A DNA stretch of 64,000 bases, taken from NCBI RefSeq assembly GCF_000403785.1, contig NZ_APHJ01000021.1, forward strand, positions 434,001-498,000, given 5' to 3'. The notes beneath the pieces are model-generated. The model saw nothing but the letters and a program-made list of their open reading frames with translations. It was not told the DNA's origin and did not search any database. The stretch is from Gillisia sp. CAL575. GTDB lineage: Bacteria; Bacteroidota; Bacteroidia; Flavobacteriales; Flavobacteriaceae. Positions 3,862 to 8,280 of the stretch are shown one piece after another (the stretch's first letter is position 1; the number at the start of each line of letters is the position of its first letter). A program made the position numbers and the translations under genes.

Positions 3862-6336
3862 ATGTATGTACTAAAAAGAGACGGCCGTAAAGAGCCTGTT
3901 ATGTTCGACAAAATTACAGCCAGAATTAGAAAACTTTGTTATGGTTTAAACGAACTTGTGGATCCGCTTAAGGTTGCAATGCGCGTTATTGAAGGTTTAT
4001 ATGATGGTGTTACCACAAGTGAATTAGATAATCTTGCTGCAGAGGTTTCTGCAACCATGACTACTTCTCACCCAGATTACGCCAAACTTGCTGCAAGAAT
4101 TTCTGTATCTAACCTACACAAGAATACTAAGAAAACATTTTCTGAGGTAATGACAGACCTTCATGAATATGTAAATCCTAGAACTGGAAAAGATGCTCCT
4201 CTTTTAGCAGATGAAGTTCAAAAAGTCATTCAGGAAAATAAAGAACTACTAGATTCAACAATTATATATAATCGTGATTTTAATTACGATTACTTCGGAT
4301 TTAAAACCTTAGAGCGTTCGTATTTATTGAAATTGAATGGGAAAATAGCAGAGCGCCCACAACATATGTTAATGCGTGTTTCCATTGGAATTCATATAGA
4401 TGATATTGATGCGGCAATAGAAACTTACGACTTAATGTCTAAAAAGTTCTTTACGCATGCAACGCCTACGCTTTTCAATTCAGGAACACCAAAACCACAA
4501 ATGTCATCCTGCTTTCTTCTTACAATGAAAGATGATAGTATAGATGGTATATACGATACGTTAAAGCAAACCGCCAAGATCTCACAATCTGCAGGTGGAA
4601 TTGGATTATCTATACACAATGTTCGTGCAACTGGATCTTATATTTCCGGAACCAATGGAACTTCCAACGGGATTGTGCCTATGCTTAGAGTATTTAATGA
4701 TACTGCGAGATACGTAGATCAAGGTGGAGGAAAACGTAAAGGTTCTTTTGCAATGTATGTAGAACCATGGCATGCAGATATCTTCGATTTTCTAGATCTT
4801 AAAAAGAACCACGGAAAAGAGGAAATGCGTGCAAGAGATCTATTTTATGCAATGTGGATCCCAGATCTTTTCATGCAACGTGTAGAACAAGATTCAACTT
4901 GGACGCTTATGTGCCCTAATGAATGCCCGGGACTTTTCGATATTTATGGAGATGAATTCGAAGCTTTGTATCATAAATACGAAGAAGAAGGAAAAGGTAG
5001 AAAAACTATCAAGGCTCGCGAGTTATGGGAGAAAATCTTAGAATCTCAAGTAGAGACTGGAACTCCTTACATGTTGTACAAAGATGCAGCAAACAGAAAA
5101 TCCAATCAGAAAAACCTTGGGACTATTAGATCTTCCAACCTCTGTACAGAGATCATGGAATATACTAGCCCAGATGAAGTTGCGGTTTGTAACCTTGCTT
5201 CTATCGCTTTACCTATGTTTATAAAAGGTAAAGAATTTGATCATAAGGAACTTTATAAGATCACCAAACGAGTAATTAAGAATTTAAATAAGGTAATAGA
5301 TAGAAACTACTACCCTGTTAAAGAAGCAGAAAACTCTAATGTGCGTCACCGTCCTGTTGGATTAGGAGTACAAGGATTGGCAGATGCTTTTATAAAATTA
5401 AGAATGCCATTTACCAGTGACGAGGCAAAAGCTTTGAATCAGGAAATATTTGAAACCCTTTATTTCGCATCTGTTACGGCTTCTATGGAATTGGCAATTG
5501 AAGAAGGACCATACTCTACCTACGAAGGATCTCCAATTAGTAAAGGAGAATTTCAGTATAATATGTGGGGAATTAAAGATGAAGACCTTAGCGGGCGTTG
5601 GGATTGGGCTAAGTTGCGTAAGCAAGTAATGAAGAACGGAGTTAGAAACTCCCTTTTAATGGCGCCAATGCCTACAGCTTCCACTTCTCAGATTCTTGGA
5701 AATAACGAGGCTTTTGAGCCTTATACATCTAACATCTATACAAGAAGAGTACTTTCAGGAGAATTCATAGTTGTGAACAAGCACCTATTAGAAGATCTTG
5801 TAGAACGTAACCTTTGGACAGAAGATGTAAAAAATGCTATTTTACGGGCAAACGGATCTGTACAAGGAATAGATATTATCCCTCAAGACCTTAAGGAATT
5901 GTACAAAACAGTTTGGGAATTAAGTATGAAGGATATTATAGACATGTCCAGACAACGTGGATATTTCATAGATCAGTCACAATCGCTTAACCTGTTCATG
6001 GAAAATGCAAACAATAGCAAGTTAACTTCAATGCACTTTTACGCATGGAAGAGCGGACTTAAAACTGGAATGTATTACTTAAGAACTAAGAGTGCGGTAG
6101 ACGCTATTAAGTTCACCCTTTCTAAAGAAACTAAGAAAGAACCGGTATTAGAATCTTACGCAGAATTAGCGCAACCAGATGTAGTGGTTGCTCCAATAAA
6201 AGCGGCAGCTCAACCAACACCGCAACCTGCAGAAGTAGCTGTAGAAGGAGATGCACTTTCTCCAGACGAGCTAAAAGCACTTATTGCTCAAGCCAAGGAA
6301 GCAGAAGGTGATGATTGCCTGATGTGTGGGTCTTAA
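3862..6336 (+). CDS. nrdA: Ribonucleoside-diphosphate reductase class Ia, alpha subunit
   Basis: An 824-residue catalytic R1 subunit. The N-terminal ATP-cone (residues about 1-90, starting [15 protein letters not shown]) is the allosteric activity site. Redox cysteines are C217 and C443; the thiyl radical residue is C428 within N426-x-C428-x-E430. The numbering is nearly the same as in eukaryotic R1. The C-terminal shuttle cysteines C819 and C822 (CLMCGS) follow a Pro/Ala/Gln-rich linker. Two tyrosines typical of radical transfer lie in the C-terminal domain. It partners with nrdB, but the hairpin between them suggests partly separate expression. Confidence 0.97.
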
Positions 6337-6376
6337 AATTCAATTTTACCCCGACTAGTATATAGTCATCATTAAC

Positions 6377-6412
6377 AAAAGGGAAGTATTCGCAAGTTTA
6401 CTTCCCTTTTTT
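6377..6412 (+). terminator. Rho-independent terminator after nrdA
   Basis: AAAAGGGAAGTA (6377-6388) pairs with TACTTCCCTTTT (6399-6410) around a 10-nt loop, and the right arm runs into a T-tract. Perfect 12-bp stem. Confidence 0.85.
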
Positions 6413-6432
6413 AGTACTTTAAAAGAAATAAG

Positions 6433-6459
6433 CCCGCAGATCGCGCCGATAAACGCAGA
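6433..6459 (+). repeat. Left inverted repeat flanking the GxxExxY gene
   Basis: The segment contains CCCGCAGATC then GCG, then CGCAGA at 6454-6459. The same series, in reverse complement, occurs just after the GxxExxY gene at 6885-6913. The two copies face each other around the gene. Confidence 0.6.
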
Positions 6460-6475
6460 AAAGTAAGATTATGTT

Positions 6476-6853
6476 ATGGATGAAAACCAAATTTCTTATA
6501 AAGTTAGAGGAGCCATCTTTAATGTCTATAACAATTTAGGTCCTGGACTTTTAGAATCTGTGTATGTTGCTACATTGCTATATGAATTAAGTAAAGTAGG
6601 TTTAAAAGTTAAAAGAGAAGTTCCCGTTCCAGTTTACTACGAAGGCGAAAAATTAGAAGTAGGATTCAGGTTAGATCTTTTAATTGAAGACAAAGTGATA
6701 ATTGAAGTGAAATCTGTCGAGAACTTAGCCGAGGTTCATCATAAACAAACAATCACGTATTTAAAGCTCACAAAATTAAAATTGGCTATTTTAGTCAACT
6801 TTAATGTGGAAAATATAAACTCCGGTATTTTTAGGAAAGTAAATGGATTATAA
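6476..6853 (+). CDS. GxxExxY family protein (PD-(D/E)XK nuclease-like)
   Basis: A 125-residue protein of the GxxExxY family. The name motif is visible as G-LLESVY (residues 22-29, within NNLGPGLLESVY). A nuclease-type core follows: the VGFRLDLLIEDKVIIEVKSV stretch supplies D and the E-x-K pair expected of PD-(D/E)XK folds. The QTITYLKLTKLKLAILVNFN segment is the conserved C-terminal part. The function of the family is unknown. It sits between the nrdA terminator and dgt, bracketed by inverted CGCAGAT-type repeats, so it may be a small insertion module (inference). ATG at 6476 gives the usual family length. Confidence 0.88.
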   Translation: MDENQISYKVRGAIFNVYNNLGPGLLESVYVATLLYELSKVGLKVKREVPVPVYYEGEKLEVGFRLDLLIEDKVIIEVKSVENLAEVHHKQTITYLKLTKLKLAILVNFNVENINSGIFRKVNGL

Positions 6854-6884
6854 TTTTTTAAATATAAACAAAAGCGTAGATAAA

Positions 6885-6913
6885 AATCTGCGAAAATTCG
6901 CGAGATCTGCGGG
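6885..6913 (-). repeat. Right inverted repeat flanking the GxxExxY gene
   Basis: Read on the minus strand, this carries CCCGCAGATC, TCGCG, then CGCAGATTTTT, matching the copy at 6433-6459 with about 6-8 variable bases between the conserved words. It ends about 18 bp before the dgt start. Confidence 0.6.
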
Positions 6914-6930
6914 AGAAATAAAATTACAAC

Positions 6931-8280
6931 ATGATGAATTGGGAACAACTTCTTTCTTTAAAGAGATATGGAGATACTAATAAAAGATTACGAAAAGAAC
7001 AAAACGAAACCCGTCTTGGTTTCGAAGTAGATTACGATCGCATTATTTTTTCTTCGGCCTTTAGAAGCCTTCAAGATAAAACCCAGGTAATTCCGCTTTC
7101 TAAAACAGATTTTGTCCATACCCGTTTAACCCACAGTTTAGAAGTTTCTGTAGTTGGAAGATCCTTAGGGAGACTTGCTGGGCAAAAGATCCTAGAAAAG
7201 CATCCTCAGCTAAAGGAAACTCATGGATACCAAATGAATGATTTTGGAGCAATAGTAGCTGCTGCTGCTTTAGCGCACGATATCGGAAATCCACCTTTTG
7301 GACATTCTGGCGAGAAAGCAATTGGAGAATACTTTAGCCTTGGTAATGGAAAGCGTTTTAAAGAACAACTTTCAGATAAAGAATATCAGGATCTCATAAA
7401 ATTCGAAGGGAATGCTAACGGCTTTAAGATCCTAACAGAAAACAGACCTGGAATAGAAGGTGGTTTGCGTTTGTCCTATGCCACTTTGGGAGCATTTATA
7501 AAATACCCGAAAGAATCCCTTCCGCATAAACCCACAAAAAATATAGGCGATAAGAAATTTGGTGTTTTTCAAACGGAAAAAGAAATATTTGAAGAGATTG
7601 CAGAAGAACTAGGTCTTAATAATGTTAGAAATGGTGAATTTACAGCATACACAAGACATCCACTGGCATTTTTAGTGGAAGCTGCAGATGATATTTGTTA
7701 TACTATCATCGACTTTGAAGATGGCATTAATCTAGGTTTGATAGATGAGGAATATGCTCTGGAATATTTAATTAAGCTTGTAAAAAATAGCATAAACACT
7801 TCAAAATATAATTCCCTTACCAACACTGCAGATAGATTAAGCTATTTGAGAGCACTGGCTATTAATACGCTTATCACCGAAGCTGTAGATATTTTCCTGG
7901 AAAATGAAGAAGCGATCTTAAAAGGGGAATTTCATGAATCGCTATTTGATATGAGCAGTTACGAAGCGCAAATCAAGGACATTATTAAGATCTCTGTAGA
8001 ACGAATTTATCAAAGTGAAGAAGTAATCAATAAGGAAATTGCGGGCTATAAAATGCTCTCTCATTTACTAGACACCTATACGGAAGCCTTTTTACCGGAA
8101 TCTATAGAACTAGAAGACTCCAATTACAATAATCTGGTAAGAAAATCGGTTCCTAAATTAATAATTCAAGATGGACAAACAGTTTATGAAACTTTAATGC
8201 AACTTTGCACATACACTGCTTCTCTAACCGATGGGATTACTGTAGCGTCTTTTAATAGATATAAAGGAAACCGTATATGA
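6931..8280 (+). CDS. dgt: Deoxyguanosinetriphosphate triphosphohydrolase (dGTPase)
   Basis: A 449-residue HD-superfamily enzyme predicted to hydrolyse dGTP (or other dNTPs) to the nucleoside and triphosphate. The metal-binding HD signature is clear: THSLEV near residue 68, ALAHDIGNPPFGHSGE around residues 113-128, and a later D in the LVEAADDICY segment. The N-terminal RLRKEQNETRLGFEVDYDRIIFSSAFRSLQDKTQV is typical of the family. Two ATGs in tandem (6931, 6934) could serve as start. Location next to nrdAB places dNTP synthesis and dNTP removal side by side. Confidence 0.92.
   Translation: MMNWEQLLSLKRYGDTNKRLRKEQNETRLGFEVDYDRIIFSSAFRSLQDKTQVIPLSKTDFVHTRLTHSLEVSVVGRSLGRLAGQKILEKHPQLKETHGYQMNDFGAIVAAAALAHDIGNPPFGHSGEKAIGEYFSLGNGKRFKEQLSDKEYQDLIKFEGNANGFKILTENRPGIEGGLRLSYATLGAFIKYPKESLPHKPTKNIGDKKFGVFQTEKEIFEEIAEELGLNNVRNGEFTAYTRHPLAFLVEAADDICYTIIDFEDGINLGLIDEEYALEYLIKLVKNSINTSKYNSLTNTADRLSYLRALAINTLITEAVDIFLENEEAILKGEFHESLFDMSSYEAQIKDIIKISVERIYQSEEVINKEIAGYKMLSHLLDTYTEAFLPESIELEDSNYNNLVRKSVPKLIIQDGQTVYETLMQLCTYTASLTDGITVASFNRYKGNRI

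Follow-up and report, generated by a model that had tools for sequence, protein, structure and literature searches.

Facing arrays of short words around GxxExxY nuclease-like genes: a candidate gene-repeat system resembling REPIN/RAYT pairs

Facing arms around GxxExxY genes, words whose spelling is linked to the protein clade, gene-less hairpins, and the co-occurrence of gene and arrays together support a linked gene-repeat system with mobile hairpins. The locus at the center of this report lies in a stretch of 64,000 nucleotides from Gillisia sp. CAL575 (contig NZ_APHJ01000021.1, positions 434,001 to 498,000; hereafter the window, with positions numbered from its first letter). We lean narrowly toward regarding the window gene and its arms as a resident copy of such a nuclease-plus-repeat system, whose protein-driven steps we infer, and we favor the reading, drawn by analogy, that the protein would act on the repeats. 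GxxExxY genes occur in many bacteria and some archaea.

A nuclease-like gene between facing arms

The original prediction placed a GxxExxY gene with facing arms between the nrdA terminator and dgt (neighbor names that we take to be correct from the sequences), and the arrangement held up in two domain searches and in shuffles of the arms. The features of the junction are as follows.

6377..6410, plus strand: terminator-like hairpin with a 12-nt perfect inverted repeat, the left border of the variable junction, outside the module
6433..6459, plus strand: left arm, CCCGCAGATCGCGCCGATAAACGCAGA
6476..6853, plus strand: GxxExxY / PDDEXK_3 gene, 125 aa, with residues E27, D67, E77-x-K79, Q91, and Y95
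6887..6913, minus strand: right arm, facing the left arm, reverse complement CCCGCAGATCTCGCGAATTTTCGCAGA
6931..8280, plus strand: dgt, the right border of the junction, with 86-95% identical relatives in 14 other genomes of the genus

The reading frame 6476-6853 is intact, and its product matches PF13366 with E 1.5e-39 (135.4 bits against a cut-off of 22) and TIGR04256 with E 5.3e-41 (139.6 bits against a cut-off of 35); up to E 1, PDDEXK_3 is the only Pfam family found in it. Residues E27, D67, E77, K79, Q91, and Y95 are invariant across 20 aligned proteins of the genus, and the predicted active-site residues of PD-(D/E)XK, RecB/Cas4 type are intact in the window's protein; the catalytic roles that we assign among E27, D67, E77, K79, and Q91 are presumed from the PD-(D/E)XK fold. 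The AlphaFold2 model of the 125-aa protein has a mean pLDDT of 95, and its best fold match is 4ic1 (SSO0001, which we take to be a Cas4), the sole solved protein with chains at E 0.001 or below (TM 0.46-0.59 of the query), followed by lambda exonuclease, Bax1, AdnAB, and RecE at E 0.003-0.03. A search for solved structures related by sequence gave a single match, at E 0.18. The protein also matches PHROG 1706, 'CRISPR/Cas system associated', at E 4e-5 and, weakly, the PADLOC Cas4b model at E 0.03; a defense-system identity, for which the weak Cas4b match was the sole pointer, was dropped. So were a phage origin (viral_contigs gave one relative among 130 pattern matches) and a plasmid origin (seven plasmid records, all less than 60% identical and predicted to be non-mobilizable).

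In genome G053 a GxxExxY domain of the FQEVIY type, a type without repeat arms, is fused to a RecQ helicase with DEAD, Helicase_C, RecQ_Zn_bind, and RQC domains (L374:1435-3339, plus strand); an 883-aa frame in G041 resembles this fusion, judged by its length alone. The fusion of this FQEVIY-type relative is consistent with action on DNA that is unwound or folded.

The arms are 27 nt long, 78% complementary, and 427 nt apart, the longest inverted pair listed in 6200-7200. The left arm (6433-6459) is composed of CCCGCAGATC-GCG-CCGATAAA-CGCAGA and the right (6887-6913), reverse-complemented, of CCCGCAGATC-TCGCG-AATTTT-CGCAGA. Of 2000 dinucleotide shuffles one reached their ungapped score of 15, as did four of 3000 stretch pairs drawn at random from the window; both frequencies are nominal, because the 64 kb had been scanned for features beforehand. 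The arms are rather degenerate: strict units spaced 8-11 bp apart form no pair in the left arm, and the gapped flank score of the locus, 15.2, is produced by an alignment other than the arm pairing, so that the window locus is counted neither among the 77 nor among the 60 positive loci of the 119-locus survey described below. At the nrdA-dgt junction of the window gene's orthologs the arms are clearer than in the window, and a hairpin resembling 6377-6410 is present in most of the nrdA-dgt junctions displayed.

The window's genome has three PF13366 genes, the window's included, and the other two carry the words CACGGAT/CGCGGAT and CACGAAT. The pattern CGCAGAN{2,14}CGCAGA occurs at three sites in this genome, the two arms and one solo hairpin, and the idea of an amplified CGCAGA repeat there was dropped on this count; the third CCCGCAGATC site of the genome is an isolated match without an array. 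The solo hairpin (C20:735650-735674, L081), of CACAGAT/CGCAGAT words, is about 295 kb away from the window gene and close to a contig end, with no GxxExxY gene within the stretch read.

Facing arrays at other GxxExxY genes

We collected 132 loci: 21 of 28 matches in the genus, 80 genome_contigs loci, one viral contig, and 30 loci from a phylum sample of 148 genomes. The set is mostly Bacteroidota and, since matches were taken best first, overrepresents high scores and the window's clade. The seven genus matches removed were three fragments, a truncated copy, a broken copy, and two in proteins of more than 300 aa; other broken genus copies were retained. Usable flanks (120 bp on both sides) were available for 129 of the 132 loci, and far flanks too for 119; L185, a duplicate of L004, is included in the 129 and excluded from the 119-locus counts, and seven rows with wrong starts (L109, L118, L143, L149, L168, L179, and L184) were kept in the flank counts, where they add noise, if their flanks sufficed.

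In reverse complement, the right flank of a gene resembles its left flank (mean score 20.0) more than the right flanks of other loci do (11.6), and the own-flank score lies above the 95th percentile of mismatched pairs in 74 of the 129 loci and above the 99th in 39. Near the gene the inverted-repeat score is 20.2 versus 10.6 far from it, and it reaches at least 17 at 77/119 loci near and 0/119 far; the far flanks are presumably mostly coding, and hence the mismatched-pair control matters too. Hexamers enriched near the gene include CGCAAA, CGCAGA, CACAGA, and CACAAA. Units of the form CRC[AGT]RA[AGT] number 9.0 per 500 bp near the 119 genes versus 2.4 far, with at least four units at 110/119 loci near and 23/119 far, and the commonest spacing between them is 9 bp, a second rise following at 18-22 bp. 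Facing arrays, which the original prediction expected at other family members, surround the gene at 60/119 loci, as against 0/119 in the far flanks; arrays in the same direction only occur at 7, and an array of any kind at 106/119 near versus 13/119 far. Some words fall outside this unit, namely AATCCGAATT at L010 and L014 and CGCAGCG at L013 and L019.

In a second, less selected sample, facing arms were found at 9 of 37 genes and any array at 18; none of its five FQEVIY-type members has an array. This sample omits loci that duplicate L333-L335, first-sample rows, fragments, a contig-end copy, and the RecQ fusion, and one of its 37 genes (L344) repeats L189 of the first sample. Given the 9 of 37, facing arms as a rule for every GxxExxY gene were dropped.

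As a control we used the S23 genes of the same genus (28 of 30 loci fetched, from a larger number found), at which CRC[AGT]RA[AGT] units show no excess (1.36 near versus 1.29 far). Facing repeats scoring at least 17 occur at 9/28 of these genes near and 0/28 far. S23 genes (23S_rRNA_IVP, PF05635, L032-L061), whose product is a four-helix bundle, are present in 15 of the 16 genus genomes, often between facing repeats, with flank words of about 7 bp such as AGTGAAG, TTAGTAT, CAGTTGG, and GAATCAA; S23 genes and their own words are perhaps a parallel gene-repeat system.

Word spelling and protein clade

The spelling of the word is linked to the clade of the adjacent protein. On a tree of 121 proteins (eight rows excluded, seven for wrong starts and one as a duplicate), letter 7 of the word (T or G, 100 rows) changes 4 times versus a shuffled mean of 21.8, letter 2 (100 rows) 14 times versus 31.6, and letter 5 (91 rows) 13 times versus 30.2, and for each letter none of 1000 shuffles matched the count; the tree was built from few columns and leaves 58 of its 118 inner branches open, so these numbers describe a clade pattern and not a settled history. 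Restricted to the genus (15-16 rows), the shuffles give p 0.001 for letter 7, 0.023 for letter 2, and 0.025 for letter 5. A single genome, G004, has four GxxExxY clades with four words (L007, L017, L025, and L028). The exact word CGCAGAT, which the original prediction sought throughout the family, belongs to one group only; other clades bear other words, and a single CGCAGAT repeat for the whole family was given up.

Common descent of the gene and its flanks may account for part of this agreement. It accounts less easily for the persistence of words between proteins about 50% identical and between hosts labelled as different phyla, although several of the cross-phylum records are metagenome bins and at least one record, L125, may be misbinned, since it is titled Rhizobium but falls with Flavobacterium.

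Filled and empty junctions across the genus

Some species have a filled junction where others have an empty one at the orthologous site. We located dgt in 15 of the 16 genus genomes. The nrdA-dgt junction holds the gene with CGCAGA arms in the window's genome (G000), G003, G004, G011, and G001, with a broken gene in G009; CGCAGA arrays are present in G010, as read from only about 245 bp of contig, and a relic-like left arm is kept in G013. G007, G015, G005, and G002 have neither the gene nor CGCAGA arms, the empty junction that had been expected among relatives; G012, with too little contig, was left unjudged. In G006 and G008 the junction holds a different ORF (224 aa in G006, L068:676-1350, and a similar one in G008, L067), and the G006 ORF has no Pfam match over cut-off. 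In the gene-less junctions of G007 (L063), G015 (L075), and G005 (L069) a different hairpin-like repeat occurs, with the sequence GGGCGTTACCCTTCGGGTCGGGCTTTCGC or a variant of it and CCCTAACGCAA at its end.

The suggestion that the unit can be amplified is supported in two relatives: G003 has two tandem copies of it, one broken, and the displayed stretch of the G004 junction has one full gene and three truncated copies with hairpins between, the truncated copies sharing one internal deletion. The direction of the arms also flips, the CCC end facing outward in G000 and inward in G011.

In 13 of the 16 genomes we also read a second junction, between a gene that we take to be ftsX and a small gene. 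It carries a GxxExxY gene with CACGAAT arms in G000, in G013, and, with two stops, in G007; gene remnants remain in G006, G003, and G015, with an arm also kept in G006 and G003, and in G012 and G002 the words and a gene or gene fragment lie nearby. The junction is clean in G009, at 11 bp, and measures 39 bp in G005 and 82 bp in G001; G011 has no word within the part displayed, and G004 was left out of the filled and empty calls. Neither a target-site duplication nor a movement intermediate was seen at the filled and empty junctions, whose borders are imprecise. The mobile module of the original prediction is supported in part by the filled and empty junctions, and its classical form, an element bounded by terminal inverted repeats, is not established, the arms being variable in length and direction.

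Gene-less hairpins and co-occurrence

Arrays matching CRCARAGNNCRCARAG, a pattern whose unit CRCARAG covers G-ending words only, were counted in the 148 genomes of the phylum sample. The 74 gene-bearing genomes (73 of which exceed the family's cut-off) have 696 sites and the 74 without a detected gene 67, versus 26 and 28 for the reversed pattern; at least three array sites occur in 40/74 genomes with the gene and 5/74 without, and the co-occurrence of gene and arrays has a within-family permutation p of 0.00025. The window's own genome has zero CRCARAG arrays. All 18 genomes not labelled Bacteroidota hold arrays (843 sites versus 45 for a reversed control, with a similar pattern), a set chosen throughout for having the gene and thus with no gene-free group.

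Many arrays stand apart from any GxxExxY gene. We chose 28 solo sites in five genomes, and at 19 of them arrays face each other within 160 bp, with a median length of 107 bp; as folded DNA these 19 hairpins have a median z of -5, 15 of them below -3, and many solo hairpins start with TTAACC and finish with GGTTAA. The original prediction had set repeats lying without the gene against itself, and the gene-less arrays, which are numerous, count against it in part; we read them as mobile hairpins. Of ten array-rich genomes, eight have at least one gene with CRCARAG units in its flanks; in the other two, G064 (19 array sites) and G053 (26 array sites), none of the four and three genes read, respectively, bears the array word. 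G040 has 83 array sites, mostly CGCAAAG among those listed, and the sole array-bearing gene read there has a mix of words led by CACAGAG.

Comparison of congeners shows hairpins present in some genomes and absent from others at the same site. A three-gene operon of G040 (L298; genes presumably cusA, tolC, and cusB) was read in 14 of 41 congeners searched. The gap between genes 2 and 3 has a hairpin in G040, G186, G195, and G188 and none in ten others. The gap between genes 1 and 2 has a CGCAAAG hairpin in G040, a CGCAGAT-class hairpin in G195, and a CGCAGAT-class hairpin plus apparent CGCAAAG remains in G186 and G188; in the ten other genomes it measures 102-105 bp with neither hairpin. The L298 hairpins reach into reading frames, giving C-terminal additions such as NRKERKDLREER, and they also lie within the predicted N-terminal part of the next protein. 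Elsewhere, at L207 (G027) and L254 (G122), there are tandem arrays whose repeating unit spans about 212-232 bp or about 108 bp and itself contains repeat arrays.

Proposed mechanism and alternatives

Our best reading, by analogy, is a REPIN/RAYT-like pairing of hairpins and enzyme in which the enzyme would be an unrelated, RecB/Cas4-like nuclease. Both the reading of the word and movement by the protein are proposed from what PMC3116915 and PMC8266576 describe for REPIN/RAYT. Specifically, i) the word is a 7-base unit, approximately C-R-C-N-R-A-K, arrayed at 8-10 bp spacing so as to lie on one helix face; ii) two facing arrays make either a free hairpin or the arms around a nuclease gene; iii) the protein would bind phased units of its own spelling; iv) it would cut the hairpin or its base in single-stranded DNA during replication or repair; v) repair or template switching could then copy hairpins to new sites; and vi) the gene would reside long at a site and be lost through internal deletion or point mutation.

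The gene might instead be a passenger, the cargo of MITE-like hairpins spread by another enzyme such as a RAYT or an IS200/IS605 transposase. Array sites do far exceed genes in number, G064 and G053 are rich in sites and have no gene read with that word, five genomes without a detected gene have at least three sites, and arms are absent from many family members. We nevertheless think this unlikely, as the letters of the word vary with the protein clade and not with the host, several words coexist in one genome, each at its own clade, arrays co-occur with the GxxExxY gene within families, and the word is missing at the 28 S23 genes of the same genus. It is improbable that the arms act at the RNA level, pairing in the transcript to protect or process the mRNA in the manner of 23S rRNA intervening sequences: S23-family genes of the genus also lie between facing repeats, of other words of about 7 bases (9/28 near and 0/28 far), but gene-less hairpins occur at many junctions and extend into reading frames, the predicted fold is of DNA-nuclease type, and the arms are imperfect (78% in the window).

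A classical transposon of about 480 bp with terminal inverted repeats would explain a gene flanked by facing arms at junctions both filled and empty, yet it seems quite improbable when arm length, unit number, and arm direction vary among copies, gene-less hairpins resemble complete units by themselves, and the same junction is occupied in several species with the gene decaying there. Phased units both upstream and downstream of a small gene would also suit an operator, that is, binding sites for control of the gene by the protein itself or by a different regulator; the many copies elsewhere, as hairpins and tandem arrays, make this highly improbable.

A broader form of the pairing of a nuclease with its repeats, which we think less likely than not, would be a repeat code: each GxxExxY clade would have its own word of about seven letters, read in helical phase, and its own hairpin population in the host, a second and independent REPIN/RAYT-like invention with a minimal Cas4-like nuclease as its engine, found in bacteria and archaea, with S23 and its own words as a third. 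Many proteins are annotated as GxxExxY, a name to which no role is attached, and arrays of CGCAAAG or CACAGAG type are scattered in many genomes; once the two are paired, a function can be tested for each. Should the nuclease read its word, the table of clades and words would supply natural pairs of enzyme and site, and REPIN-like hairpin populations would have evolved with at least two unrelated enzymes.

Comparison with known systems

The open literature passages on the GxxExxY/PF13366 family make no mention of flanking repeats, and repeat strings such as CGCAAAG and CACAGAG, taken as text, return only unrelated titles there (connexin 26 in heart muscle, optic cup development), subscription literature lying outside the scope of both statements; one annotation pipeline is reported to have assigned the name GxxExxY to a gene at a place where cas4 should have been. 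The predicted fold is like that of Cas4, lambda exonuclease, and RecB. Unlike these, GxxExxY is a single small domain, and its neighbors here are nrdA and dgt. The S23 ORF lies in 23S rRNA intervening sequences (PMC4990558); like S23 (PF05635) ORFs of the same genus, GxxExxY is a small gene between facing repeats, but it belongs to another protein family, and the flanks of S23 have words of about 7 bases and no CRCNRAK excess.

The closest comparison is with REPIN/RAYT (TnpA-REP, 'REPtron'), in which, as PMC3116915 and PMC8266576 describe it, hairpins of inverted short repeats are dispersed, the enzyme gene is linked to repeats of the same class, enzyme groups co-evolve with repeat classes, and there are ordered tandem clusters and hairpins inserted into or beside other hairpins. 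The GxxExxY system likewise has dispersed inverted-repeat hairpins (19 of 28 chosen solo sites). On the linkage of enzyme and repeat the counts are mixed: facing arms stand at 60/119 and 9/37 genes, and eight of ten array-rich genomes have a gene with CRCARAG units, G064 and G053 being the exceptions. RAYTs are HuH transposases close to IS200/IS605 (PMC8266576), and the RAYT-linked repeat is a palindrome of 20-40 bp belonging to the GTAG or CGTC groups (PMC3733652). By contrast, the GxxExxY enzyme is a 125-aa predicted PD-(D/E)XK nuclease of RecB/Cas4 type, and its repeat consists of 7-base units that recur every 8-10 bp. Since the gene encodes no HuH transposase, only PDDEXK_3/GxxExxY with a predicted RecB/Cas4-like fold, we do not file the system as a RAYT.
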